A stretch of DNA of 27,502 nucleotides from a virus. Each line of letters opens with the position of its first letter. Position 1 is the stretch's first letter. The notes under the pieces were generated by a model. That model saw nothing but the letters and a program-made list of their open reading frames with translations. It did not search any database and had not been told where the DNA came from. Made by a program: the position numbers and the translations under genes. This document shows positions 3,956 through 20,455 of this stretch, piece by piece. The stretch is from IMG/VR virus record IMGVR_UViG_3300032046_005475, positions 1 to 27,502 of that record; one strand, 5' to 3'.

Positions 3956-4459
3956 ATGAAAAAAAAGGATACTGTCCTAAGCATACTGCAAGAGATCAGA
4001 AATCTCTTGAAGCAGGAAACAATATCCACGAAGGTTATTTTACCGGCTCCGCGTCAAATCAATGACCGTTTCATTGACAACAATGACGGAACCATCAGCG
4101 ATAAGCAGTTCAATGTTATCTGGGTAAAAGATCCTACGGTCTTAGGAGCAGTTTTTCAAAAAACAATGACCTTTGAGGAGGCAAAGGAGGCTTGCGAAAA
4201 ACTTTCCTACGCGGGTTATAACAGTGGGTGGAGGCTGCCCACGATAGAGGAGCTGCGTTCGATCATAGATTATTCACGGTCTGATCCGGCCTGGGATACA
4301 GACGTTTTTGCCGGAAAACATAACGACTGGTACTGGACAAGCACACCCTGCGCTTGGGATTCGGACGCCGCGTGGTGCGTGGGCTCCGTCAACGGCGTCG
4401 TGTTCTACGACCATAAGTACGGTCATTACTATGTGCGGCCAGTCCGCTCCAGCCAGTGA
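3956..4459 (+). CDS. DGR target protein 1 (DUF1566, C-type-lectin fold)
   Basis: A 167-residue protein whose C-terminal 30 residues are encoded by a diversified repeat. Residues 1-28 are a charged helix, and 38-167 are a DUF1566 domain: RFIDNNDGTISD, VLGAVFQKTMTFEEAKEAC, GWRLPTIEEL, NDWYWTST, AAWCV and YVRPVRSSQ. This domain has the C-type-lectin-like fold in known DGR variable proteins, with the VR forming the ligand-binding surface. Variable residues lie between Val142 and Tyr159. There is no signal peptide, membrane helix or tail-fibre domain. AAGGAG at 3941-3946 precedes ATG 3956. It is paralogous to the next gene. Confidence 0.93.
   Translation: MKKKDTVLSILQEIRNLLKQETISTKVILPAPRQINDRFIDNNDGTISDKQFNVIWVKDPTVLGAVFQKTMTFEEAKEACEKLSYAGYNSGWRLPTIEELRSIIDYSRSDPAWDTDVFAGKHNDWYWTSTPCAWDSDAAWCVGSVNGVVFYDHKYGHYYVRPVRSSQ
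4367..4455 (+). repeat. DGR variable repeat VR1
   Basis: An 89-bp copy of the template repeat at 5484-5572. I aligned the two by hand without gaps: 14 mismatches, all at positions that are A in the template (for example AAC to GTC, TTC, TAC or GAC; AAT to GGT). Nine of ten template AAY codons are changed. The last 22 bp and the first 15 bp are identical, as expected for the conserved ends including the initiation-of-mutagenic-homing region. The reading frame stays open and ends two codons later. Confidence 0.95.
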
Positions 4460-4498
4460 TTGACGGTTTGACAATTTAACCTTTAAAAGGAGAGAAGT

Positions 4499-4960
4499 AT
4501 GGCAAAGACAAAAACAGCAAAGAAAGAGGTACTACCGGAGGCACGTTTTATCGACAACAAGAACAATATCATCACCGACCGCAAAACAGGTCTGGAGATT
4601 ACCCAGGACCCTACGGTTCTTGGAGAGATATTCAAGAAGCAGATGACATTCGAGGAAGCGGAGAAGGCCTGCGCCGCACTTGATTTCGCAGGTCATAAGG
4701 ACTGGCGGTTGCCGACCGTGGAAGAGATCTGCGGCATGGTTGATCGTACGAAACATGATCCTTGTTACGATACCAAAATCTTCAAGGGCAAATTCGATGA
4801 TTGGTATTGGAGTAACGAAACTTGTGTCTGGAATAAAGATGCCGCGTGGTGCGTGCACTCCGGCAACGGCTACGTGGACGGCCTCCGTAAGTTCAATCAT
4901 GTCTATGTGCGGCCAGTCCGCTCCAGCCAGTGTCATTTTGCCCCTTTGCCAGTGAGGTAG
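4499..4960 (+). CDS. DGR target protein 2 (DUF1566, C-type-lectin fold)
   Basis: A 153-residue paralogue of the preceding target. A 14-residue Lys-rich start is followed by DUF1566 blocks: RFIDNKNNIITDRKTGLEIT, PTVLGEIFKKQMTFEEAEKAC, DWRLPTVEEICGM, DDWYWSNETCVW, AAWCVHS and YVRPVRSSQ. The VR begins at residue 115. Unlike target 1 it continues nine residues past the VR (ending CHFAPLPVR). AAAAGGAGAG directly upstream gives a strong ribosome site. There is no export signal or fibre domain. The gene ends six bases before the avd start, indicating one transcript for target, accessory protein and probably RT. Confidence 0.93.
   Translation: MAKTKTAKKEVLPEARFIDNKNNIITDRKTGLEITQDPTVLGEIFKKQMTFEEAEKACAALDFAGHKDWRLPTVEEICGMVDRTKHDPCYDTKIFKGKFDDWYWSNETCVWNKDAAWCVHSGNGYVDGLRKFNHVYVRPVRSSQCHFAPLPVR
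4841..4929 (+). repeat. DGR variable repeat VR2
   Basis: A second 89-bp variable copy of the 5484-5572 template. Gap-free hand alignment gives 14 mismatches, all at template adenines, including one in a CAT codon (to CGT) and changes in eight of ten AAY codons. Mutated positions overlap those of VR1 but the outcomes differ, so the two repeats were diversified independently. The 3' 22 bp are identical in TR, VR1 and VR2. Confidence 0.95.
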
Positions 4961-4966
4961 TTGAAT

Positions 4967-5338
4967 ATGAGTACCGCATACGAAGGATTGCCGATTTATA
5001 GAGCAGCGATTGATATGGTCGTTTATTTTGAGACGATCGTCCGCGGATTCTCTCGGTATCACAAATATACGAGCGGTACAGAATTGCGCAACCTTTCGTA
5101 TACGGTTCTTGTTTTGATCGCACAGGCGAATATTAGAGTTGACAGAGAAAATAGGCTCAAATCTGCCCTGGATAAGCTTCAGGAACTCAAAATCAGGGTT
5201 CAGGTGTGCGCGGAAATTAAAGCTTTCCGGAGACCGAACAATTTTCCTACGGCCACCAGGAAGGTTATTGAAATATCAAAGCAATGCGAAGGATGGCTAA
5301 GGAGTTGCCAGAATCCTGGAAGATCAGAATCTTCATAG
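4967..5338 (+). CDS. avd: DGR accessory variability determinant (Avd)
   Basis: A 123-residue, basic, all-helical protein matching the Avd/four-helix-bundle family: YEGLPIYRAAIDMVVYFETI (helix 1), then FSRYHKYTSGTELRN, a family hallmark linking helices 1 and 2, SYTVLVLIAQANIRVD (helix 2), RLKSALDKLQELKIRVQVC (helix 3) and RKVIEISKQCEGWLRSC (helix 4). In the Bordetella phage DGR, Avd forms a pentamer that binds the RT and is required for mutagenic homing. I start at ATG 4967 with AGTGAGGT upstream rather than the TTG at 4961. It lies between the second target and the template repeat, the normal DGR order. Confidence 0.93.
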   Translation: MSTAYEGLPIYRAAIDMVVYFETIVRGFSRYHKYTSGTELRNLSYTVLVLIAQANIRVDRENRLKSALDKLQELKIRVQVCAEIKAFRRPNNFPTATRKVIEISKQCEGWLRSCQNPGRSESS

Positions 5339-5350
5339 GAGAGTGCGAAC

Positions 5351-5461
5351 ATGAAGCCACTGGGCGCTCATGCCACCAGTAAGACAGGTATAAGAACACA
5401 AGAAGCAGTACTGCAAGGATCTGCTTCTGATGGCCGGAAACGGCATCAAGTGCGTGAGTAA
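5351..5461 (+). CDS. possible small ORF between avd and TR
   Basis: A 36-codon open frame (starts MKPLGAHATSKTG, ends RKRHQVRE) with a good AGGAGAG site at 5338-5343 and ATG at 5351, in the stretch between avd and the template repeat. It has no recognised domain and is basic. It could be a real peptide or simply part of the noncoding TR transcript leader that DGR cDNA priming needs. I report it because of the ribosome site; confidence is low. Confidence 0.3.
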   Translation: MKPLGAHATSKTGIRTQEAVLQGSASDGRKRHQVRE

Positions 5462-5483
5462 GTAGTGCGCTGTCGCGTGTTGG

Positions 5484-5572
5484 GCCGCGTGGTGCGTGAA
5501 CTCCAACAACGGCAACGTGAACAACAACCATAAGAACAATCATAACTATGTGCGGCCAGTCCGCTCCAGCCA
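5484..5572 (+). repeat. DGR template repeat (TR)
   Basis: The invariant 89-bp donor of the two VRs. Read in the VR frame it is Asn-rich: ten AAC/AAT codons, two CAT and one AAG fall in the central part. AAY codons are typical of DGR templates because A-randomisation gives many amino acids but no stop. The first 15 bp contain no adenine, and the end (GTGCGGCCAGTCCGCTCCAG and flanking bases) is shared by all three copies. The 3' end overlaps the first codons of the RT open frame in another frame. Confidence 0.95.
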
Positions 5573-6492
5573 ACGGCTCATCAAGCATTTTTTCGTTCGA
5601 GAATATCCACCGGGCATATCTCAACTGCCGGAGGAATAAACGTGGAACTATCAATGCGCTGCGGTTTGAATTTAATGCTGCTGAAAACCTGCTTAAGCTC
5701 GAACGAGAACTTAATGATTACACCTACCATGATTCATACGCCTGCCGAAGAAACAAAGGAACCCATGCCGCCGTCATCCGGCTTCAGAAATTTACCCGCC
5801 AAATAACCAAGAACGGCAAGACCCGCGCATATTTTTTACAGTTGGACATCAAGGACTTTTTTCCAAATATTGATAAGGAAATCCTTTTCCAGTTGATCGC
5901 ACGTAAGGTGAGGAGTTCGGATATCCTCTGGCTTACTCGCATAGTAATCTTTTGGGATTGCACTAAATCATACGTTACTCGAGGCGGTTCTTCATTGCTC
6001 CGTCGTGTCCCTACGCACAAAAGTCTGTTTGGAAAGAATAATGAACGTGGTCTGCCGATAGGAAATCTTACCAGCCAATTTGCCGCTAACGTCTATCTAA
6101 ACGAACTGGATCAGTTTGTGAAGCATCGGTTGAAGGCGCATTATTATCTGCGATATGTTGATGATTTTGTGATCCTGCATACTGATTCGGAACAACTCAA
6201 CAGATGGCGCGGAGAGATTAGTGCGTTTTTGGCACAAAGGTTGAATTTACGGCTGCATCCAACACGGCATAAGCTTTTGTCGGTATCGAACGGAGTTGAC
6301 TTCTTGGGATACATTGTTCGGCCAGGATATATTTTGGTTAGAAAAAGGGTGGTAAACAACCTAAAGTCTAAACTAAAGGAATTGAGAAATTATCCCGATA
6401 AATTAAGGGATTCTATTGCATCTTATCTGGGCCATTTTAAACACGCAAACAGTTATCGCTTGGTTAACAGTTTAGGCTTATGGAAAATTTAA
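5548..6492 (+). CDS. DGR reverse transcriptase, missing the motif 1-2 segment
   Basis: A 314-residue RT that copies the TR into adenine-mutagenised cDNA in DGRs. Motif 3 is LQLDIKDFF (catalytic Asp100); LPIGNLTSQ (169-177) is the DGR-specific form of RT motif 4; YVDD (203-206) is the catalytic motif 5; then NGVDFLGYIVRP and a basic thumb. However, after NLLKLERELNDYTY (47-60) the protein jumps directly to HDSYACRRNKGTHAAV. In Bordetella phage Brt and relatives about 45 residues lie between, including the PK.R and F.DR.V.H blocks of motifs 1-2. The deletion is in frame. The first ATG (5548) lies within the TR and has no clear ribosome site, so the true start is uncertain. Confidence 0.9.
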   Translation: MCGQSAPANGSSSIFSFENIHRAYLNCRRNKRGTINALRFEFNAAENLLKLERELNDYTYHDSYACRRNKGTHAAVIRLQKFTRQITKNGKTRAYFLQLDIKDFFPNIDKEILFQLIARKVRSSDILWLTRIVIFWDCTKSYVTRGGSSLLRRVPTHKSLFGKNNERGLPIGNLTSQFAANVYLNELDQFVKHRLKAHYYLRYVDDFVILHTDSEQLNRWRGEISAFLAQRLNLRLHPTRHKLLSVSNGVDFLGYIVRPGYILVRKRVVNNLKSKLKELRNYPDKLRDSIASYLGHFKHANSYRLVNSLGLWKI

Positions 6493-6860
6493 AAAACACA
6501 ATCTACCAATACCTGGAAACCTACTGCCAAGGGCGTGGCCGGGCTGTGAAGCTCGACCACCTTGGCAGTATTGTTTCTCTGGAGCCGGTCCCTTGGCGTC
6601 ACGTGGCTGAGGCAGTGGAGCAGTTGCGTAAAGAAGGAAAGCCTGTTGCTTCATGTGCCAGGGGAGTATTCATTCCCTCAACGCAAGATGAGAAGAAGTC
6701 GTGCCTCAGGACGATCTACCGCAGGGCGCTGCATACCCTGGAGACAGCCCGGGCCCTTGAGAAGGCCTTTGGCCGGCAGATCGTGGAAGAGGTCAATGAT
6801 GAGTTTAACCAGCTGCCAAGCGGTCAGCTGGAGATGAAAGCTGTCTGTGGAGCGAGGTAA
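6480..6860 (+). CDS. winged-helix-like phage protein
   Basis: A 126-residue protein whose ATG overlaps the RT end by 13 bp. LDHLGSIVSLEPVPWRHVAEAVEQLRKEGKPVASCARGVFIP (residues about 25-66) reads as a winged helix: two helices, then a beta hairpin ending in a G-V-F-I-P wing, as in phage replication or regulatory proteins of this style. The C-terminal half (LRTIYRRALHTLETARALEKAF) is a long helix. I do not recognise a specific family. Coupling to the RT gene is probably positional, since it heads the replication-type cluster that follows. Confidence 0.6.
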   Translation: MENLKNTIYQYLETYCQGRGRAVKLDHLGSIVSLEPVPWRHVAEAVEQLRKEGKPVASCARGVFIPSTQDEKKSCLRTIYRRALHTLETARALEKAFGRQIVEEVNDEFNQLPSGQLEMKAVCGAR

Positions 6861-6863
6861 TCA

Positions 6864-7022
6864 ATGGAGCCTACCGGATTTTGCTGGAAATGCGGGCACC
6901 CTTGTGAACCAAATGAACTGTTTTGTTCTAAAAAACACGAACAGCAATACTATAGAGACCGGGCCCGGCAAGTCAAGCGCGGCAAGAAGGCCGGATACGG
7001 GCTCGCGGGGAGTACGCATTGA
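6864..7022 (+). CDS. tiny zinc-ribbon protein
   Basis: A 52-residue protein with CWKCGHPCEPNELFCSKKH (residues 7-25), a Cys4-type zinc knuckle, followed by a very basic helix (EQQYYRDRARQVKRGKKAG). It starts at ATG 6864 four bases after the previous stop and its own stop overlaps the next ATG at 7022. The overlapping open frame at 6847-7041 lacks these features and I treat it as a shadow. A nucleic-acid-binding adaptor is plausible, but no specific function is recognised. Confidence 0.65.
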   Translation: MEPTGFCWKCGHPCEPNELFCSKKHEQQYYRDRARQVKRGKKAGYGLAGSTH

Positions 7023-7333
7023 TGCCAAGAAAAGAAGCTGACGTCAAGCGCGCGATCGCGCAATACCTGAGGTGCCGCGGCTGCCTGGTGATCCCCTACC
7101 GGAACGTGGGGATTTTTAAGCGGGATACCGGCAAGTATATCCCTTCTCAACAGCTTGGTATCTCTGACCTGTTGGGTCTTACGCGCGAAGGCAGATTTTT
7201 TGCGGTAGAGGTTAAAATGCCGGGGAACAAACCGACCATTTTTCAGGAGAAGTTTCTCGAGACAGTGCGGAGCTTCGGCTGTATCGGTATAGTGGCGTAT
7301 TCGATCGAAGATTGCATGAAAGCTGGATTATGA
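7022..7333 (+). CDS. VRR-NUC domain nuclease
   Basis: A 103-residue single-domain PD-(D/E)XK nuclease of the VRR-NUC type, the phage Holliday-junction-resolvase-like family. Visible core residues: Asp49 in LGISDLLG, Glu63-x-Lys65 in FFAVEVKMPG, and Gln75 in FQEKFLETV, with N-terminal basic helix EADVKRAIAQYL. ATG 7022 overlaps the previous stop and GGGGAG lies upstream; a TTG three bases earlier is less likely. It probably resolves branched DNA during replication or packaging. An 81-bp gap follows, holding only a 15-codon frame with a ribosome site (7349-7396), which I do not count as a gene. Confidence 0.85.
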   Translation: MPRKEADVKRAIAQYLRCRGCLVIPYRNVGIFKRDTGKYIPSQQLGISDLLGLTREGRFFAVEVKMPGNKPTIFQEKFLETVRSFGCIGIVAYSIEDCMKAGL

Positions 7334-8697: not shown

Positions 8698-9438
8698 GTG
8701 TATTGCTTAGGTAGTTGTTTTTCAGGTCAAGGTTTAGGGGACTTCGGTTTTTACCTCGGGGGGTGGGAGATATCTTGGCAGATTGAAATAGAAAAATACG
8801 ACCAAAAAATTTTAAACTTACGGTGGCCGGAGAGCAAAAAATATGGCGACATCAAAAAAGTCAGGCCAAAAGAACTCGCAGCAGTTGACCTTGTTTGGGG
8901 AGGGTTTCCCTGCCAGCCATTTAGTTGCGCCGGGAAGCGCAGAGGCAAAGACGATGACCGTAACCTCTGGCCAGAAATGCGCCGGATTATATTCGAAGTT
9001 AAACCACCTTGGGTCGTTATTGAGAATGTTCCTGGAATCGTCGGAATTATGCTCGAAGAAATTCTTGATGACCTGGAGAACGAAGGTTACGAAGCAATCC
9101 CGTTTATATTTCCGGCTCACGCTCTCGGCGCCCCGCACAAAAGAGAAAGGATTTGGATTATTGCCTACTCCCCGGAGCAAAGACAGCGAAGGAGGAAAGG
9201 CAACAATTATACCGGGGACTTACCAGAGAATATCGAAACAAGGAAAGAAGCACGGAGCGAAGTTAGCCGACATTTTCGGTTCTGGGAATCTGAACCCGGA
9301 GTGGGTAGAGTGGTTAATGGGATGCCCCATAGGGTGGACAGACTTAGAGGTCTCGGAAACGGCGTTGTTGTTCAAGTCGCGTATTTTATCGGGAAAATGA
9401 TTATTAAGTGGGAAGAAGATAATATCAAGCAGGTTTAA
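8698..9438 (+). CDS. DNA cytosine-5 methyltransferase
   Basis: A 246-residue C5-MTase that would transfer a methyl group from SAM to cytosine, probably protecting phage DNA from restriction. Motif I is CFSGQGLGDFGF (7-18), motif IV GGFPCQPFS with nucleophile Cys72, motif VI VVIENV (107-111 region), motif VIII ALGAPHKRERIWIIAY, and motif IX/X RLRGLGNGVVVQVA near 215-228 (family usually GNAVVPQ, so the P is a V here). The target-recognition region between VIII and IX is very short (about 160-195), as in compact phage enzymes. It starts at GTG 8698 with GGGAGGAATAGGAA upstream. A second open frame is nested inside (8843-9400). Confidence 0.9.
   Translation: MYCLGSCFSGQGLGDFGFYLGGWEISWQIEIEKYDQKILNLRWPESKKYGDIKKVRPKELAAVDLVWGGFPCQPFSCAGKRRGKDDDRNLWPEMRRIIFEVKPPWVVIENVPGIVGIMLEEILDDLENEGYEAIPFIFPAHALGAPHKRERIWIIAYSPEQRQRRRKGNNYTGDLPENIETRKEARSEVSRHFRFWESEPGVGRVVNGMPHRVDRLRGLGNGVVVQVAYFIGKMIIKWEEDNIKQV
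8843..9400 (+). CDS. overlapping ORF nested in the C5-methyltransferase gene
   Basis: A 185-codon frame lying wholly inside the methyltransferase gene, shifted by +1. It has its own ATG with GGAGAG eight bases upstream (8829-8834). Its translation contains blocks I recall from separately annotated phage proteins: TVTSGQKCAGL, LGSLLRMFLESSE, FLMTWRTKVTKQSRLYF, GFGLLPTPRSKD and PEWVEWLMGCPIGWTDLE. These blocks lie exactly opposite conserved methyltransferase motifs (for instance TSGQKC over NLWPEM, GLLPTP over WIIAYS, EWVEWLMG over GVGRVVNG). So their conservation may echo the methyltransferase, or both frames may be used. Function unknown. The long open frame and ribosome site make translation plausible, not proven. 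Confidence 0.4.
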   Translation: MATSKKSGQKNSQQLTLFGEGFPASHLVAPGSAEAKTMTVTSGQKCAGLYSKLNHLGSLLRMFLESSELCSKKFLMTWRTKVTKQSRLYFRLTLSAPRTKEKGFGLLPTPRSKDSEGGKATIIPGTYQRISKQGKKHGAKLADIFGSGNLNPEWVEWLMGCPIGWTDLEVSETALLFKSRILSGK

Positions 9439-11148: not shown

Positions 11149-12411
11149 ATGCAAGATGCCTCGATAGAATGGAAAAGCGAGAAGCGAATGATCGCAGAGC
11201 TAATTCCTGCCAAATATAATCCGCGACAAGCTTCCAAAAAAGAAGAAAACGACTTATTACTTTCCTTTGAGAAATTTTCTCTCGCAGACCCCCTGGTCAT
11301 TAACCGCAACAACACAGTCATCGGCGGACATTTCCGACTGCGCCTCTTACAGCAAAAAGGAATCCAGGAAGTAGACGTACGGGTGCCGAGCCGATTGCTC
11401 TCTGAAGCAGAGGAAAGAGAGCTCAACCTAAGGCTTAATAAGAATACCGGAAGTTGGGATTTCAAACTGTTGGAGAATTTCGGCAAGGACATGCTCTCGG
11501 ACGTTGGCTTCGATAGCGCGGACTTAGATCGCATCTTCGGCCAGCCGATTCATGAAGACGATTTTGATGCTGAGGCTGAATATCAGAAAATAGCGGTCCC
11601 GAAAGCAAAGTACGGAGATATTTATCAGCTTGGAGAACATCGTTTAATGTGTGGGGATTCCTCAAAAGAAGAAGACGTGGCTCTCTTGATGGATGGACAA
11701 CTTGCTAGGATGATCTTTACTGATCCGCCATATAACGTCGATTATAAATCTCCAGCAGGACTCGATTATTCCTCAAGAAAATTCGGAGGCACGGGAGGAA
11801 GGATTTTTAATGATGATCTATCTGATGAAGAGTGCCTTGCTTTTTACACAAAGGTCTTAAGTAATCTTTTAAAATTCAGTACCGAAGACGCCACGATTTA
11901 CTGGTGGTTTGCCAATAAAAATAACTGGATTAACAGAATGGCCTTCGATGCCACCGGCTGGCACATGAGTCAGATTATTGTGTGGCTTAAGAATTCAATG
12001 ATCTTTAGCCACGGACAGGATTACCACCGGCAATATGAACCCTGCATGCTGGGATGGAAGAGGAAGCGGTCCCATTTTAGCAATAAACAGATTGCGGACC
12101 TCAAGGACATCTTTAATCTCGATTTCGATGATTTTAACGACATGCTCGATGTCTGGTATCAAAAGAGGGATGTTACGACACAGTATCTTCATCCTACCCA
12201 AAAACCTGTCAGGTTGTCTGAGCGGGCGTTAAAGAAGAACAGCGAGCGCGGCGATATCGTTTTGGATCTATTCGGAGGCTCAGGATCCACGCTCTTAGGC
12301 TGCGCGCAGCTCGAGCGCAGGGCGTATCTCATGGAGTTAGACCCAAAATATGTCGATGTAATTATTTTACGCTGGGAAAGGTTCACTGATAAAAATGCAG
12401 TCAAAATTTAA
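11149..12411 (+). CDS. ParB-like domain fused to DNA adenine/N4-cytosine methyltransferase
   Basis: A 420-residue fusion. Residues about 5-130 are a ParB/Srx-like domain (IPAKYNPRQ; INRNNTVIGGHFRLRLLQ), 150-410 a beta-type amino-methyltransferase with catalytic DPPY at 192-195, HPTQKP at 348-353 and SAM-binding DLFGGSGSTLLG at 373-384, the DPPY-first order of the beta class. Such fusions are common next to phage terminase genes, where they probably modify DNA before packaging or protect it from restriction. The start ATG 11149 has only a distant purine run and lies beside a hairpin. The start context matches relatives (IEWKSEKR.IAELIPA.YNPR), so I keep it. It overlaps the next gene by 17 bp. 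Confidence 0.9.
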   Translation: MQDASIEWKSEKRMIAELIPAKYNPRQASKKEENDLLLSFEKFSLADPLVINRNNTVIGGHFRLRLLQQKGIQEVDVRVPSRLLSEAEERELNLRLNKNTGSWDFKLLENFGKDMLSDVGFDSADLDRIFGQPIHEDDFDAEAEYQKIAVPKAKYGDIYQLGEHRLMCGDSSKEEDVALLMDGQLARMIFTDPPYNVDYKSPAGLDYSSRKFGGTGGRIFNDDLSDEECLAFYTKVLSNLLKFSTEDATIYWWFANKNNWINRMAFDATGWHMSQIIVWLKNSMIFSHGQDYHRQYEPCMLGWKRKRSHFSNKQIADLKDIFNLDFDDFNDMLDVWYQKRDVTTQYLHPTQKPVRLSERALKKNSERGDIVLDLFGGSGSTLLGCAQLERRAYLMELDPKYVDVIILRWERFTDKNAVKI

Positions 12412-12796
12412 AAGCGTCAGAGCTATTATGGCGAGTTTAAGAAACGGTACCTCAATTTCTGCCGCATGTAAAGCTGCAAACATTGAAGCAACTACTTTGT
12501 GGCGATGGCGGAAGGCAAGGCCGAAACTCGATGAACTCATTCGAAACGTTATTGATAGCCGTATCCAGATTGTTGAAGACGCGCTTTTTAAAAGCGCAAT
12601 GGAAGGCAACACGACTTCAATTATTTTTTTCTTGACCAACCGTGCGCCTGATCGCTGGGCTGATAAGCGTGCAGTTGTCAATAATACCATTGTCAACAGG
12701 GTGGGGGGAAAGGTAGGAGGAAATGGAAGCTTTACTGGAGAAGACAAAGACCTCCAAAACAGAATCCGGGCCGAGTTTCTTGGCCAAGTGCCTTAA
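12395..12796 (+). CDS. terminase small subunit (probable)
   Basis: A 133-residue protein with an N-terminal helix-turn-helix: GTSISAACKAANIEATTLWRWRKARPKLDELI (about 18-50), the typical DNA-recognition part of small terminases, followed by an oligomerisation-like helix and LTNRAPDRWADKRAV, a block seen in small terminases of this type. It would recognise the packaging site and recruit the large subunit. It overlaps the methyltransferase by 17 bp and the large terminase by 74 bp, a normal packaging-gene order. Confidence 0.75.
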   Translation: MQSKFKSVRAIMASLRNGTSISAACKAANIEATTLWRWRKARPKLDELIRNVIDSRIQIVEDALFKSAMEGNTTSIIFFLTNRAPDRWADKRAVVNNTIVNRVGGKVGGNGSFTGEDKDLQNRIRAEFLGQVP

Positions 12797-14132
12797 TAGC
12801 TTCTCGTTTTATTACTTCTATGCGTTTAGCGTAGCGATAAGGCGCGTCGAGGGTTCTTTTTTCACTCCGTTATTCCACAAGGAAACGTGCGACCGGCTTG
12901 AGATGTATAACCGTACGTCTACTGTGGCCCCGCGATTCCATCTTAAAAGCACAGTCGAAGAAGGGCATGTCAGCTGGAAACTTCTTCGGATGGAACATTT
13001 TTTCAATGAAGGAATGTATTTCTCTTATACCAACGACCTTGCTGCTTACCATACGAAACGACTTAAGCGGTATATCTTTGCCCTCCCCGAGTTATTCGGA
13101 GAATACAGAAACTGCACCGACAGCGAAAGCGTCTTACATTACCGCAATGCAGACGGAAGGATTTTTGTCTGTGAGCCAGCGGGAATCTTGACTTTCCAGA
13201 GAGGCAAGCATCCTCACAACATTTGGGCAGATGATATCCTCCGGGACCCTCAGGTTAGGTTAGACATCACACAGATCGAGAAGATAGCGCGGACCTACTT
13301 TGAAGAGATTGAGCAGATGCCCAAGGAAGGACTTCATCTGGTAGGTACGCCGCAGGACAGCGAGGATCTATTCGCGCAGTTGGAAGGCAACCCCGGGTAC
13401 AACTGCCGAAGATATGATGCCATCGTTGATGAGGCGCGCAAGTTAACTTTATGGCCGCAGCGTTTCTCATGGGAAAAGTTAGTTGAGATACGGCAGCGTA
13501 TCGGAGAGAAAGCTTTCAACAAAGAATTCCGATGCATGCCGGTTCGAGGCGAAGAGGGGTATATCAATCTTTCGACGCTCTCAAGATTCATCAATAGCCG
13601 TCTTCGTAATTATGAAATAAATAATCCTCCGAAACTAAAAGACACCCGGCTCGTGGTTGGCGGCTTCGATATCGGGAAGAAGACGCATCCAAGCCACTTG
13701 TCTTTATTCGCGGAGAGCCAAAAAAAGCTTAAGCAGATACATAGCAAATTCATGGACGGCTGGGATTACAACGATCAGGTCGATTATCTCAGGCAAATCA
13801 TTAAGAATTTTAAAGTCCAGAAGCTTTTCTACGATAACACTCGGGCTGAATTTGAAGGCTTCCAAGAGAGGGGGGAACTTCCAGGGGAGATGGAAGGGAT
13901 AAGCTTTACTGCGGGGAGTAAATTTTCAATGGCCGCAGAGCTTGACCAGATCATCACGGCAGGGCAGATTGAACTGTTAGATGATGCGAGGCAGAAGCGA
14001 CAGATCCTCACGGTGGATTGTGATTTAAAAGCCCCTGAGACACAAGACGGTCATGGGGATGCGTTCTTTAGTCTATGCCTTGCGGCGCACGCTTGGCATG
14101 AAGCAAGCGGGATAATCATCTGGTCGCCATAA
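12723..14132 (+). CDS. terL: terminase large subunit
   Basis: A 469-residue packaging motor. The ATPase Walker A is a deviant RFHLKST (71-77) without the usual G-x4-G-K; Walker B is NIWADDIL (Asp170-Asp171), and the coupling motif is LVGTP (206-210). The C-terminal RNase H-like nuclease keeps Asp316 (GGFDIG), Asp371 (FYDN) and Asp446 (GHGDAFF). It pumps DNA into the prohead and cuts it. ATG 12723 follows GGGGGGAAAGGTAGGA and lies within the small-subunit gene; a start further in is possible because the first 40 residues are weakly family-like. Ends nine bases before the portal gene. Confidence 0.9.
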   Translation: MEALLEKTKTSKTESGPSFLAKCLNSFSFYYFYAFSVAIRRVEGSFFTPLFHKETCDRLEMYNRTSTVAPRFHLKSTVEEGHVSWKLLRMEHFFNEGMYFSYTNDLAAYHTKRLKRYIFALPELFGEYRNCTDSESVLHYRNADGRIFVCEPAGILTFQRGKHPHNIWADDILRDPQVRLDITQIEKIARTYFEEIEQMPKEGLHLVGTPQDSEDLFAQLEGNPGYNCRRYDAIVDEARKLTLWPQRFSWEKLVEIRQRIGEKAFNKEFRCMPVRGEEGYINLSTLSRFINSRLRNYEINNPPKLKDTRLVVGGFDIGKKTHPSHLSLFAESQKKLKQIHSKFMDGWDYNDQVDYLRQIIKNFKVQKLFYDNTRAEFEGFQERGELPGEMEGISFTAGSKFSMAAELDQIITAGQIELLDDARQKRQILTVDCDLKAPETQDGHGDAFFSLCLAAHAWHEASGIIIWSP

Positions 14133-14141
14133 GAGGAGAAA

Positions 14142-16175
14142 ATGGGATTGCTAAACTTATTCGTAAGATTTAGAAAGACACGCGCAGAGCCAATAAAACG
14201 GCGGACTGTGAGAGAAGTCATCAAGAAAAATCTAAGCTGGGGGAAGCTCTTTGCTCTTGGCAAAGAGATGAATTTGTTTGGCGGTAATAAGGTCACAGAA
14301 CCATACAAGCAGGTTGCCACTATCTATAAGGCAATCAAAGCCATTGCGGACAATATCCCCCAAGCCAAGATAATTTTTGTCAATAAAGATGAGGAGGAGA
14401 TAGACGATCCTCTCCTGACCGAGCGTTTTGCCAGGCCTAACGGATATCAAAGCATAAACGACTTCCTTCAGGAGATGGCTGGATATTATTCGCTTTATGG
14501 CGAGGTTTTTCTACTCAAGGATATACAGACTATCGGAGAGGCAGCCGGGACTAAGTTACCGGCGCTTGTCAATCTTAACCCAAAACTGATGAGTGAGTCG
14601 GTTGATTATAGCGTTGGATTGCTAAAAGGGTGGAAGTATGGCACGAAGATTTTCGCGCCAGAGGAGATAATCCACATCAAGGATTTTAATCCTTACAACA
14701 AATTCCGCGGGTTGTCGCCGCTCGCTCCTATTGATGACGAGATGCAACTTGACCAAGATACGATAACCTTTAACAAGAAATTTTTTGAATCTGATGCGAC
14801 GCCGAGTTTTGTCTTGAGTACAGATAAAAGTCTCAGTGATCCACAGCGCAAACGAATTGAAGAATGGTGGAGATCACAGTATGCAGGGCTCGAGAATAAA
14901 TTCAAGATGGCCGTGCTCGAGGGCGGCCTTAAGGCAGAGGCATTAGGGCAAACTCATAAAGACATGGAATTCATTGAGCAGAAGCGGCTTACCCGAGAAG
15001 AGATCCTCGGAATTTGGCGTAGTCCCAAAGCATTGTTCAATATAACCGAAGATCTTAATTATGCCACGTTCGTCGGGCAGATGAAAATCTTCTGGCTCTA
15101 TACGCTTATGCCTATTTTGCAGAAATTCAAGGATGGCTTTAATGCACATTACATAAAACAATATCGGAATGATGTTTTTCTCACCTTTGATATCAAAAAT
15201 GTTCCGGCCTTTGCTGAGGATTTTAAGGAAAAGGTTACCACAGGATCAGTACTTTTCACGATGGGGTTTACCGGCAATGAGATCAACTCAAAACTTGATC
15301 TCGGATTTGAAAATAAACCATGGCGCAATGAGTGGTGGATACCGTTTGGCCAGACGCCGGCAAGTGCGGCAAAAGATGAAGGCGCGGATGGTCTTCCACC
15401 GGAGGACGAGACTCAGGATGGGGCGCAGAAAACCCTGCAATATACCCCGCGCCAAAGAGCAATCATCAGGAGCTTCTTGGCAAGGCAAAGCAATATTGAG
15501 GATTTGTTTCACAGGAAGCTTAAACGGTATTTCTACGACCTGCGCAGCAAGATGCTTAATACAAGCAATGATTTGTTGATCTCTGGCAAGGTTGATGTCA
15601 ACTGGGACAAGCAGGATGATGAACTTGTTGAAAAAACAAAGCCGATGCTAAAGCTTGCCATAGATCAGGGGGTTGCGCATGCAGAGGCAGCCCTGGGAAG
15701 CAAAAAATCGATAGACGATGATGCGCTCGAGCATAAGATCAACAGCTATCTTGCGGTAAGAGCAGATAAAATAACCGGCATCAACAGGACCTTGCAAAAG
15801 AAAGTTTTTGATGTTATCGCCGAGATCACGCAGGCGGGCGGGACGATTACGGATATTGCCGCGGGCATCAAGGAAGAAATCAGGAACATGTTCAATAATG
15901 CGGCAACACGGTCCCGGCTTATTGCGCGTACTGAAACCGTAGGCGCGGTGAATGGAGGGAGTCTTATTTATTATCAGAACGAAGGCGTTGAGAAGAAAGA
16001 ATGGCTCACTGCTAATGATGAGTTTGTCAGAGAAAGTCATGCGAGATGCCAAGGCCAAGGGGCGATAGATTTAGATAAGCCTTTTAAAAACGGGCTCATG
16101 TATCCTGGTGATCAGAACGGAGGCGCGGCCGAGGTTTGCAATTGCAGATGTACCATCGCGCCGGTGGTTGAATAA
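14142..16175 (+). CDS. portal protein fused to MuF-like head protein
   Basis: A 677-residue fusion. Residues about 30-410 match the HK97-type portal family (TEPYKQVATIYKAIKAIADNIP, DFLQEMAGYYSLYGEVFLLKD, EEIIHIKDFNPYNKFRGLSPL, LTREEILGIWRSPKALF), the dodecameric ring through which DNA enters. After a linker (DEGADGLPPEDETQDG), residues about 590-677 match the phage Mu F domain: LIARTETVGAVNGG, WLTANDEFVRESHARCQG, then the Cys block AEVCNCRCTI. MuF proteins are minor head proteins, sometimes carrying toxins at the C-terminus; none is added here. Separate genes are more usual, so the fusion is notable. AAGAGGAGAAA precedes the ATG. Confidence 0.9.
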   Translation: MGLLNLFVRFRKTRAEPIKRRTVREVIKKNLSWGKLFALGKEMNLFGGNKVTEPYKQVATIYKAIKAIADNIPQAKIIFVNKDEEEIDDPLLTERFARPNGYQSINDFLQEMAGYYSLYGEVFLLKDIQTIGEAAGTKLPALVNLNPKLMSESVDYSVGLLKGWKYGTKIFAPEEIIHIKDFNPYNKFRGLSPLAPIDDEMQLDQDTITFNKKFFESDATPSFVLSTDKSLSDPQRKRIEEWWRSQYAGLENKFKMAVLEGGLKAEALGQTHKDMEFIEQKRLTREEILGIWRSPKALFNITEDLNYATFVGQMKIFWLYTLMPILQKFKDGFNAHYIKQYRNDVFLTFDIKNVPAFAEDFKEKVTTGSVLFTMGFTGNEINSKLDLGFENKPWRNEWWIPFGQTPASAAKDEGADGLPPEDETQDGAQKTLQYTPRQRAIIRSFLARQSNIEDLFHRKLKRYFYDLRSKMLNTSNDLLISGKVDVNWDKQDDELVEKTKPMLKLAIDQGVAHAEAALGSKKSIDDDALEHKINSYLAVRADKITGINRTLQKKVFDVIAEITQAGGTITDIAAGIKEEIRNMFNNAATRSRLIARTETVGAVNGGSLIYYQNEGVEKKEWLTANDEFVRESHARCQGQGAIDLDKPFKNGLMYPGDQNGGAAEVCNCRCTIAPVVE

Positions 16176-17268: not shown

Positions 17269-18441
17269 ATGTTAGAGGATTTGAAGAAAGCGATTGCCGA
17301 TATGCTCGATCCGTTAACGAAGAAGCTGGCTGAAGTTGAAGGGAAAGCCGGCAAATTCGCTGACATCGAGACTCGCATCAAGAAGATTGAAGAGACTCCT
17401 TTGATGAAGCGCGCTTTCAACATTAACACCATACCTACCGAACACAAAGGTAGGAAGCTTTCGCGGATGGGTTGTTCTATTCGCGAAGCAGTAGCAAAAT
17501 CTCCTTACTCGTTCGGCGCATTCCGCGAGGAAGGCAAAGTCGAGGAGTTTTGTAAGTGGGTCATTGACCTGATTACCGCCAAAACTGCCCTCAACGAAGG
17601 CACAGCGGCTCAGGGTGCGTATCTGGTACCGGAAGAGTATCAGGCCGATCTTATTCAGCTGGCGAGGAATTCCTCGTTTATGCTGAATGCCTGTACCGTG
17701 GTCCCGATGGGGTCTGACACGCTTCATATCCCGTCAGAGGCGACTCACGGCACCTTTACGTGGGAAGATGAAGCAGCAACCAAGACTGCTTCAGAGCCTA
17801 CGTTCGGGGAAGTGAACCTTGTGGCCAAGAAACTTTTCGGGCTCGCGGTTGCATCAAATGAAGTACTCCAGGATTCGCTGATTGACATCCCGTCAATCCT
17901 CACGGAGCAATTCACGTACGGTACAGCGCAGGAGCTGGACAATCAGGTGTTTGAAGGTACTGGATCGCCGGTTTCCGGTGTTTTGACCGCTAAGGCCGGA
18001 TATTCCGTAGTGCTAAGTGGCGCATCATTTAGCACTATCAGCGCGGTGAATCTGAGTCTTGCAATAGAGAAGCTCGAGGAAGGGTATCTCAACGGCGCGA
18101 GATTCTTCTTTGGAAGACTACAGCAGCACTATATCCGTAGCCTGAAGGATAGCAACGGAGCCCCGATCTATGCTCCAGTTGCTGCTCAGCAGCCAGCAAC
18201 CGTTTACGGTTTTCCGTCAAACGTCAGCGAAACAATTGCTGTTACTGATGGTACGACAAAACCGGTTGGAGTATTCGGCAACTTTAAGTATCTTGTCATC
18301 GGTCGAAGACTTGGCCAGATGACGCTTGAAGTTGATCCGTATACGCTGTTTGCCAAGTATCAAACCCAATTCCGCATGGTCACGCGGTGGGCGTTTGATT
18401 ATGGCCAGACAGGAGCTTTCTGTCGGATCATAGCTGGATAG
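17269..18441 (+). CDS. major capsid protein (HK97 fold)
   Basis: A 390-residue protein. Residues 1-45 form a coiled-coil/scaffold-like delta domain (LEDLKKAIADMLDPLTKKLAEVEGKAGKFADIETRIKKIE), likely removed by the protease. The rest follows the phage_capsid pattern: NEGTAAQGAYLVPEEYQADLIQLARNSSFM, VVPMGSDTLHIPSE, EPTFGEVNLVAKKLFGLAVASNEVLQDS, DIPSILTEQFTYGTAQELDNQVFEGTG, and VGVFGNFKYLVIGRRLG. AAGGAAAGGAGCATC gives a strong ribosome site, as expected for the most abundant product. The following 60 bp hold a short inverted repeat (GGTTAT 18441-18446, ATAACC 18486-18491) but no T-run. Confidence 0.93.
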   Translation: MLEDLKKAIADMLDPLTKKLAEVEGKAGKFADIETRIKKIEETPLMKRAFNINTIPTEHKGRKLSRMGCSIREAVAKSPYSFGAFREEGKVEEFCKWVIDLITAKTALNEGTAAQGAYLVPEEYQADLIQLARNSSFMLNACTVVPMGSDTLHIPSEATHGTFTWEDEAATKTASEPTFGEVNLVAKKLFGLAVASNEVLQDSLIDIPSILTEQFTYGTAQELDNQVFEGTGSPVSGVLTAKAGYSVVLSGASFSTISAVNLSLAIEKLEEGYLNGARFFFGRLQQHYIRSLKDSNGAPIYAPVAAQQPATVYGFPSNVSETIAVTDGTTKPVGVFGNFKYLVIGRRLGQMTLEVDPYTLFAKYQTQFRMVTRWAFDYGQTGAFCRIIAG

Positions 18442-18501: not shown

Positions 18502-19182
18502 ATGCGTAAAATCACGGTAGCAATACCGAGTTTTAATCCGGTTAAGGAATGGCTCCAACAGCTTCTTGATTCATGCGATGGTGTGGATGAGATTATCATC
18601 AGCGATGATGGAAGCGATCAGCCGATTAACCTTGAGGATTATCGGTTTCCTCATGGGGTGGATGTGCGGCTGCTTAGGAACGATAGAAACCTTGGCATGA
18701 CTGCGAATTTCAATATCGTAACTAATGCCGCTGATGATGGATTCATTACGGTACAGGCTGATGATGACTATTTTGATAAGATATATTTTCAGTTATTGCT
18801 TCGGTTCATGCGGAAGAGTTTAGCTGATGTAGTATATTTTCCGTGTCAGTATTTCGGGAAGCGCGATTTTATCTACGGGGATATACGAAACGTTTCCTTG
18901 AACGATGTCTATGAGAAGAACTACATCTATGGGGCGAGCTTTTTTACCAAGGAGATGTGGCGCTTTTTGGATGGCTTTCAGCTCGATTTCGCGCAGGACT
19001 GGGATTTTTGGCTCCGGGCGCTCAAGAGTGGCTTTAGGTTCGAATACTTTCCTCAGATATGCGCGCATTTCAGGGTAACAGAACGGTCTTATTTTGAGAG
19101 GATGCTTGTGAAGCATGGCCGGCAGCATATACACAAAGTAGTCCACGAGCATGTGGATGCGTGGGGGCTAATGAGATGTTAG
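18502..19182 (+). CDS. family 2-type glycosyltransferase
   Basis: A 226-residue GT-A fold glycosyltransferase. AIPSFNP near the start, IIISDDGSDQ (Asp35-Asp36), ADDDYFD (87-89, the metal-binding DxD equivalent) and QDWDFWLRALKSGFRFEYF (165-183, catalytic base region) are all in the expected order. It would transfer a sugar from a nucleotide donor. No clear ribosome site is visible before ATG 18502, unlike most neighbours. Located between major capsid and connector genes where glycosyltransferases are not standard; it could modify phage proteins, phage DNA bases or host surface sugars. Confidence 0.85.
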   Translation: MRKITVAIPSFNPVKEWLQQLLDSCDGVDEIIISDDGSDQPINLEDYRFPHGVDVRLLRNDRNLGMTANFNIVTNAADDGFITVQADDDYFDKIYFQLLLRFMRKSLADVVYFPCQYFGKRDFIYGDIRNVSLNDVYEKNYIYGASFFTKEMWRFLDGFQLDFAQDWDFWLRALKSGFRFEYFPQICAHFRVTERSYFERMLVKHGRQHIHKVVHEHVDAWGLMRC

Positions 19183-19346
19183 GAACCCGGCAGTCAACGT
19201 ATGAATGTATTTGTGGCGAGAGTATCCAGGGAGAGCCAGCCACGCGGCATATCTGCAGCAAATGCGGCTCCAAGATGCGGGAAACTAAAAGGGGAATCAT
19301 CACTAAGGTTGAATTCAGTAATCGGCTCTGGAAGGGAAGGCGATGA
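19176..19346 (+). CDS. small zinc-ribbon protein
   Basis: A 56-residue protein with YECICGESIQG and HICSKCGSKMRE, two C-x-C/C-x2-C halves forming a zinc ribbon, then a basic end (NRLWKGRR). ATG 19176 overlaps the end of the preceding gene by seven bases and its stop overlaps the next ATG, so all three are translationally coupled. A longer GTG start (19161) is possible. It may be a partner of the glycosyltransferases, but this is only positional. Confidence 0.55.
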   Translation: MLGTRQSTYECICGESIQGEPATRHICSKCGSKMRETKRGIITKVEFSNRLWKGRR

Positions 19347-20455
19347 GCGAGAACGGAAAGGTCAGAGTTTTCTGGGCAACACCTGAGCGCGATATGCGCG
19401 GCAATGCGCTCGGATATAGTTATCAAAACTCGATGCTCAAGAAATATGCATCCCCCTATATTATTGAGGATCCGAGCGCTGACATGATCCTGCAGATGGT
19501 ATCGGCTGAATTCTATACCCACGTTATCGGCAAAATAAATATCCTCTCTACAATGTGGGAGTTTGTTGATGTCCCCGAATCGTATAAAAAGGCGCTAGCC
19601 TTAGCTGATTATGTCATTGTGCCGAGTTCATTTTGCCGTGATATCTTTAAACCCTATACAAAACGGATTCCCTATGTTTGCCATAATGGCGTTGAGCCGC
19701 AAATCTATACCTACAAACAGCGTGAGCTTAACAATGGACAACGCTTCCGGTATCTTTGGTGCGGAGCAAGCAACGTCAGGAAGGGGTATCCTTTTTTGAT
19801 AGAAGCGACAAAACTATGCGATAAATTCCCGCAGATGGAAATATACCTCAAGACTACCATGGTGCGGGTTACTTTTAAAAGCATGCTGAGGAGCATTAGA
19901 ATGTACTGGAAAGATATTATCAGAGACAAAGACACCAAGCGTTTTCATTCGATGCTAAGGATATTGAGGCGCATCCCGAGCCCATTCAATTCAGAGAAAA
20001 TCTTTGTCTATGGAAAGAATAAGAACGTCGTTGTTGATAACCGTAAACTTCCGATAGAAGAGCTGGTGGCGCTTTATCACTCGGCGCATTGTTTCTTATT
20101 CCCCAGCCTCGGTGAGGGATGGGGCCTTACATTGTGTGAGGCTATGGCAACCGGACTTCCTTGCGTAAGCGTCAATCATAGCGGCTGCGCGGATTTCTTC
20201 GATGAAGATGTCGGCTATGTCCTCAAGACTGAGATACAGGAAAACGACCTTGAGAATTATAAGGTACGGAAGTGTCGGATGAGCGTCCCCCTGGTTCAGG
20301 ATTTTTTCAATAAAATGCTTCTTGTGCCTCAGGAATATGACCATGCGTTGCAGAAGGCAAAGCGCGCAAGCGACCGGATCAGGAACAAGTTTACTTGGGA
20401 GCAGTCGGGACACAGATTTGCTGAAATATTGAAAGATATTGCGATGAGAGAGTAG
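19343..20455 (+). CDS. family 4-type glycosyltransferase
   Basis: A 370-residue GT-B fold glycosyltransferase. The C-terminal half has FPSLGEGWGLTLCEAMATGLPCVSVNHSG (253-281), with Glu258 and Glu266 in the E-x7-E arrangement of retaining GT4 enzymes. The N-terminal half has ADYVIVPSSFCRDIF and VCHNGVEP, standard GT4 blocks before the sugar-nucleotide domain, and RYLWCGASNVRKGYPFLIEA starts that domain. There are no membrane helices. ATG 19343 overlaps the zinc-ribbon stop. With the family 2 enzyme it could build a short glycan on a phage or host component. Confidence 0.9.
   Translation: MSENGKVRVFWATPERDMRGNALGYSYQNSMLKKYASPYIIEDPSADMILQMVSAEFYTHVIGKINILSTMWEFVDVPESYKKALALADYVIVPSSFCRDIFKPYTKRIPYVCHNGVEPQIYTYKQRELNNGQRFRYLWCGASNVRKGYPFLIEATKLCDKFPQMEIYLKTTMVRVTFKSMLRSIRMYWKDIIRDKDTKRFHSMLRILRRIPSPFNSEKIFVYGKNKNVVVDNRKLPIEELVALYHSAHCFLFPSLGEGWGLTLCEAMATGLPCVSVNHSGCADFFDEDVGYVLKTEIQENDLENYKVRKCRMSVPLVQDFFNKMLLVPQEYDHALQKAKRASDRIRNKFTWEQSGHRFAEILKDIAMRE

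Follow-up and report, generated by a model that had tools for sequence, protein, structure and literature searches.

The diversity-generating retroelement (DGR) of BPP-1 is ordered mtd-avd-TR-Sp-brt: the template repeat (TR) directly follows avd, and a structured RNA, Sp, lies 3′ of the TR, between it and the reverse transcriptase (RT) gene (PMC12875486). The direction of homing is known genetically to be set by the difference between the initiation of mutagenic homing sequence (IMH), which closes the variable repeat (VR), and its counterpart in the TR, IMH* (PMC3240598), and the retrohoming step was called incompletely understood in a 2026 paper (PMC12875486). Multiple VRs (two or more), DUF1566 targets, and Avd are frequent among DGRs (PMC6642488), an overlap between the TR and the end of the RT gene has already been described, and freshly broken RTs alongside VRs that differ from the TR only at adenines are on record in the DiGReF survey (PMC3521204). 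Here, we analyzed a DGR in the IMG/VR record IMGVR_UViG_3300032046_005475, a single metagenomic contig and linear fragment of 27,502 nt. This whole stretch is called the window, and all of its features given below lie on the plus strand.

The window DGR is like that of BPP-1 in its RT with SQ and YxDD motifs, its Avd, its adenine-only exchange from TR to VR, and its difference between IMH and IMH* at the 3′ end. It shares the target family and the multi-VR layout of the DUF1566 (Lcl_C) DGRs (PMC6642488), from which it differs by a deletion in the RT. In contrast to BPP-1, the structured RNA of the clade to which the window belongs lies 5′ of the TR, and the order of RNA and template is thus reversed. 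There is no Sp-like element between the TR and the RT gene: the RT frame opens inside the TR, and almost no covariation was found 3′ of the TR, inside the RT open reading frame (ORF). The BPP-1 target is a tail protein with a hairpin downstream of its VR, whereas the window has stand-alone Lcl_C targets and an RT from which block RT1 is deleted; just downstream of the window VRs, no DNA hairpin or cruciform stood out from shuffled sequences (z −1.08 and −0.68). The explanation that we hold to be probable is that the 5′ leader RNA recognizes the IMH by base pairing, that the TR is spared through IMH*, and that the RT has since lost block RT1.

The structured leader RNA

The leader RNA, with four helices, lies at 5358–5469, 5′ of the TR (5484–5572). 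The interval between avd and the TR was conserved among relatives whose RTs differ by about 30–40%, and RNAalifold, applied to a plain MAFFT alignment of 12 sequences, gave 28 pairs, 19 of them with compensatory changes. After trimming, the alignment had 25 pairs; 97.3% of its cells were paired, 19 of the 25 pairs were changed on both sides, and the covariation score was 0.633, compared with 0.274 ± 0.025 in shuffles and ≤ 0.148 in slid controls. This strong covariation points to a conserved RNA structure. The leader had no match in Rfam. The possibility that it is a coding sequence was rejected because of stops in all three forward frames, the compensatory changes, and loops of variable length.

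The first covariance model, built from the 12 sequences, found 19 further DGR loci, and a second model found 11–12 more, these additional loci being from Desulfobacterota, Proteobacteria, Nitrospirota, and others. The window, whose own match was 101.9 bits (R1 model), was one of the 12. The leader is present in over 40 related cassettes, where it lies directly 5′ of the TR; in every locus with a TR identifiable by an adenine-only repeat, the TR starts −13 to +73 nt from the leader end. A blind search of 732 whole genomes (148, 299, and 285) gave 5, 3, and 2 matches, respectively, and these ten matches marked DGRs. All five matches in Desulfobacterota were about 90–130 nt upstream of DGR RTs, three further matches, both of those in Omnitrophota and one in Proteobacteria, were DGRs already in our set, and the other two in Proteobacteria adjoined a TR/VR pair. 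These last two, together with three from Desulfobacterota (G435, G361, and G412), came from previously unused genomes. At one locus (L110), avd and the leader occupy the minus-strand stretches 6567–6680 and 7012–7326, opposite the RT, and our script found no TR there; the leader thus goes with avd rather than with the orientation of the RT.

Complementarity between the leader hexamer and the end of the variable repeats

The leader of the window begins with the hexamer CACTGG (5358–5363), a candidate guide to the IMH. Both VRs end in its reverse complement, CCAGTG (4453–4458 in target 1 and 4927–4932 in target 2), whereas the corresponding hexamer of the TR (IMH*, 5570–5575) is CCAACG and is mismatched to it. 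The window therefore has the two marks of the leader clade, a 5′ leader and a hexamer that fits the VR end but not the TR. The hexamer covaries with the VR end across loci. In a second large class the leader has CACTGT, the VRs ACAGTG, and the TR AAAGTG, and rarer partners of leader and VR end are TATCCT/AGGATA, GATTGT/ACAATC, TACTGT/ACAGTA, CACGGG/CCCGTG, and TACTGA/TCAGTA.

Among 45 loci, the hexamer matched the VR end exactly in 30 and the TR end in 2, and the five-base core (leader bases 2–6) matched the VR end in 39 and the TR end in 4. Two of the loci counted as failures, L077 and L166, failed because the scripted interval ends before the VR end, and L077 fits in a separate comparison. 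When the hexamers were shuffled among loci, the mean was 8.8 for exact matches (maximum 16 in 5000 shuffles) and 12.4 for the core (maximum 23 in 5000). When each core class was represented only once, 6.4 of 9 matched, compared with 0.9 when permuted. Sliding along the leader gave 30 loci at offset 0, 25 at the overlapping offset −1, and ≤ 9 at all other offsets against the VR. Base 5 of the leader pairs with the VR in 56 of 57 registers and with the TR in 17. The idea of the hexamer was formed on some of the loci that were later counted, and most loci were inspected only afterwards. Six loci were retrieved after the blind genome searches: in four (L208–L211) the core is found in the VR only, in L213 in both repeats, and in L212 in the TR instead. 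From these comparisons we consider it highly probable that the leader hexamer pairs with the VR end.

Our first idea was that the 5′ end of the leader pairs with the TR end of the window itself; it was dropped as the main one because the VRs fit better, and was kept for the other leader class. In the CACTGT class (L075, L078, L080, L088, L091, and others), GATCACT, which runs from the 5′ flank into the hexamer, complements the TR end AGTGATC and overlaps the hexamer that pairs with the VR. This arrangement suggests a switch between pairing within the RNA and pairing with the target in this class. We found no description of a leader RNA and IMH pairing in DUF1566 DGRs in the openly accessible papers searched.

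Adenine-only exchange, the reverse transcriptase deletion, and the phage context

The two targets are Lcl_C/DUF1566 proteins of 167 aa (3956–4459; PF07603, E 1.2e-30) and 153 aa (4499–4960; PF07603, E 8.8e-25), with VR1 at 4367–4455 and VR2 at 4841–4929; the frame of the second continues beyond its VR. The preliminary description had reported that each VR differs from the TR at 14 positions, all of them TR adenines, and our gap-free alignment of the 89-nt repeats bore this out: 28 of the 89 TR bases are adenines, and 28 of the 28 mismatches fall on them. The probability that 14 of 14 mismatches would fall on adenines by chance is ∼5e-9 per VR, and 6e-13 for the union of 19 varied positions. 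The claim that the two targets were diversified separately also holds, as VR1 and VR2 differ at 17 sites and only 2 of the 9 positions varied in both have changed to the same base. Outside the VRs, the target genes are 62% identical in DNA, so plain duplication cannot explain the perfect identity of the VRs at non-adenine sites; that identity is kept up by homing and is not a remnant of duplication. The adenine-only exchange therefore records homing after the two targets diverged, in agreement with the earlier view that the element has been active since they arose. The 3′ end shared by the three copies is likewise real, although the quoted 20-mer was too short and the identity extends to GTGCGGCCAGTCCGCTCCAGCCA.

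The RT (5548–6492; PF00078, best Protein Data Bank match bRT, 8ub7) contains LPIGNLTSQ and YVDD, which correspond to the DGR-clade signature (I/V/L)GxxxSQ and YxDD. Its first ATG is inside the TR, ∼25 nt before the TR end, as in the closest relatives. The 3′ end of the TR (5548–5572) serves two reading frames: the targets have it as YVRPVRSS, and a shift by one base gives MCGQSAPA, the possible start of the RT. This double reading is kept in relatives. When the RT was aligned with Bordetella bRT (8ub7), the alignment skipped bRT residues 59 to about 105, whereas an intact relative aligned without a gap across this stretch, including the PKxR motif. Exactly 45 codons (135 bp, in frame) are missing, which make up block RT1 of the fingers (KPKxREI...DRVVHH), and the junction is at Tyr60-His61-Asp62 (5725–5733). 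The spacing between the flanks is 44–46 residues in 148 of 148 relatives that cover the stretch, and 0 in the window; three apparent zeros were ORFs broken in pieces, and one locus with a spacing of 33 starts inside the stretch. Of 57 family invariants, 13 are lost from the window RT, all through the gap; because none was lost by substitution, either the deletion happened recently or selection still acts on the rest of the protein. In relatives, His codons (CCAT; CCAC or TCAT) stand at both ancestral edges of the deleted block, as in a microhomology deletion. The AlphaFold model of an intact relative (L003) had a predicted local distance difference test score (pLDDT) of 88.5 and contained the RT1 strands (65–70 and 76–80), whereas that of the window RT had a pLDDT of 80.2, lacked these strands, and fell below 50 at the junction. 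Residues 63–267 superposed on several RT domains at ∼2.2–2.6 Å, and the whole chain on bRT at ∼9 Å.

An active autonomous DGR is expected to have a complete RT domain, blocks RT1 to RT7, and here RT1 is absent. RT1 forms the fingertip loop above the active site, and its charged residues contact the incoming deoxynucleoside triphosphate (PMC12337344); because this loop covers the active site and contacts the nucleotide, loss of polymerization would be expected. The window copy is probably freshly inactive, unless it is complemented or misassembled, and its present activity is doubtful on the evidence of its sequence. The preliminary description regarded Avd and the RT as completing the set. Avd was recognizable (4961–5338, starting at TTG 4961 or ATG 4967; PF22296 bAvd at 40.8 bits against a cut-off of 40, and PHROG 3206 Avd at 4e-18, with NCBIfam below its cut-off), but the RT lacks a block.

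Two points weigh against inactivity: the window RT is in frame with all catalytic residues intact, and both VRs equal the TR at every non-adenine site, which fits recent or continuing homing. It is conceivable, and the strongest of the alternatives, that the cassette is still active and that the deletion is an assembly artefact, is present in part of the population, or is made good by an RT acting in trans from the rest of the phage, a helper, or the host. The single linear metagenomic contig leaves room for this, as do the preserved frame and the absence of any other loss among the RT invariants. However, the exact in-frame loss of 135 bp, whose two ancestral edges share matching bases, has the appearance of a real deletion, and no second RT was found in the record with the family hidden Markov model, whose sole match was the window RT itself, in two pieces skipping positions 63–105. 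The DiGReF cases cited above also show comparable fresh RT losses with VRs that are still adenine-only; they arose by stops, frameshifts, or insertions (PMC3521204), whereas the window has a clean in-frame loss of RT1.

Apart from the RT deletion and the leader RNA, the anatomy of the window DGR is ordinary: it combines adenine-only differences between TR and VR, an RT of the DGR clade, Avd, a VR at the C-terminal end of the target, and an IMH that differs from IMH*. The same layout occurs in many relatives. The start of target 1 (3956–4060) includes a short segment, MKKKDTVLSILQEIRNLLK, which is also found in the targets of L002, L006, and L071 and is possibly a helical oligomerization or docking segment. 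As the preliminary description had claimed, the element is phage-borne: the contig has genes for the terminase large subunit (12795–14132; PHROG 38), the portal protein (14142–16175; PHROG 2662), a head protease, and the major capsid protein (17269–18441; PF05065, PHROG 10). An Omnitrophota host is only hinted at, by the RT and by a small hydrolase- or endolysin-like gene (932–1405) that is 64–70% identical to DGR-adjoining genes of two Omnitrophota metagenome-assembled genomes; the window terminase had no match in the three Omnitrophota genomes with the closest DGR RTs. A search of viral_contigs for near-identical phages did not find the shared VR/TR end. The window also contains a probable cytosine methylase, judged from its sequence (8698–9438), an N6/N4 DNA methylase (11149–12411; PF01555), and, within the structural module, two ORFs that resemble glycosyltransferases (18502–20455).

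A proposed role of the leader in homing

We propose the following course of homing in the leader clade. The transcript is predicted to run from avd through the structured leader and the TR to the RT. RT–Avd copies the TR, making errors where the template has adenines, and the resulting cDNA takes the place of the VR in the Lcl_C targets. The leader, as part of the template RNA, would fold beside the TR and leave its first six bases single-stranded, and this free 5′ end would pair with the coding strand at the IMH, the six bases closing the VR. Such pairing would tether the complex to the target and melt the duplex, baring the opposite strand beside the stretch of 20-plus bases common to TR and VR where the cDNA would be primed or joined. 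IMH* departs from the IMH within these six positions, most often at the one facing leader base 5, and the TR would thereby be spared as a target. In the window, the RT1 fingers block was lost later, probably by microhomology deletion, and this copy is now most likely inactive, or dependent on another RT. Pairing of the leader with DNA during homing seems to us rather probable, less so than the pairing itself; a DNA rather than an mRNA partner and targeting through an R-loop are inferred. Short single-stranded RNA segments that pair with a DNA target are a feature of another retroelement, the group II intron, in the interaction of exon- and intron-binding sites (EBS-IBS). The leader guide would work like EBS-IBS by analogy, the window having no intron or ribozyme and not being a member of that group.

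Several observations weigh against this proposal. A six-base match is short, and loci that are related cannot be counted as independent. Three loci are exceptions (L086, L076, and L212, the last of which fits the TR), L072 needs a G-T pair, and in L213 the core is complementary to both VR and TR. A generic guide search in 62 DGR loci in which no leader was detected gave no clear excess over shuffled sequences. Moreover, one leader class offers RNA-internal pairing as an alternative: there, the nucleotides immediately 5′ of the hexamer are complementary to the TR end as well (offset −2, 23 loci). This last observation also fits the unlikely reading that the leader serves as a scaffold or as cis-regulatory RNA and that its hexamer binds the target mRNA at the gene end, or the TR end in the same RNA. 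Structure alone is silent on function, the IMH is located where the target coding sequence ends, and the structured RNA of BPP-1 recruits RT–Avd (PMC12875486), all of which such a role would accommodate. Against this reading stand the preference of the core for VR ends over TR ends, a TR that differs exactly where a guide must spare it, and the known role of the IMH in marking the recipient of homing (PMC3240598).

Still less probable is the view of the preliminary description, that a phage DGR of the usual kind, complete and active and with two targets, is all there is here. The adenine-only exchange in both VRs, Avd, and the SQ and YVDD motifs do make it a real DGR, but RT1 is missing, and this view leaves the leader RNA and the fit of its hexamer to the VR end unexplained. 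Both had been overlooked, as had the overlap of the RT start and the TR. It is very improbable that the complementarity merely reflects the separate conservation of CACTG, with which the leader starts, and of CAGTGA, the final codon of the targets together with their stop: many VRs do have CAGTGA at their end, and 30 of the 45 loci belong to just two leader core classes, but VRs without a terminal stop keep the core (CCAGTGT in VR2 of the window, and CAGTCT, CAGTAT, or CAGTTT in others), and leader variants that are rare have rare VR counterparts in separate lineages.

In BPP-1 (L189), Sp positions 48–56, AGGTGGTCA, complement nine VR bases across the IMH/IMH* differences, whereas the TR gives five (shuffle P about 0.015). 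The last A of AGGTGGTCA is Sp position 56, the reported cDNA priming nucleotide. This complementarity is a lead rather than a test. It raises the possibility, for which we see the case as evenly balanced, that DGRs are RNA-guided, a segment of the template transcript (the 5′ leader here, perhaps Sp in BPP-1) pairing with the IMH in the target DNA while IMH* spares the template. Beyond the leader clade, this generalization draws on BPP-1 as its one case and is weak.

The RT deletion is a reminder that adenine-only VRs record past activity, not present activity. With the leader model, a class of DGRs can be annotated whose structured RNA precedes the template, the reverse of the order in BPP-1. 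We found no physical basis for the choice between target and template in the openly accessible papers, and a leader guide would offer one. A six-base guide with natural compensatory variants lends itself to a direct and inexpensive test and, if it holds, would let the target choice of DGRs be read from sequence.

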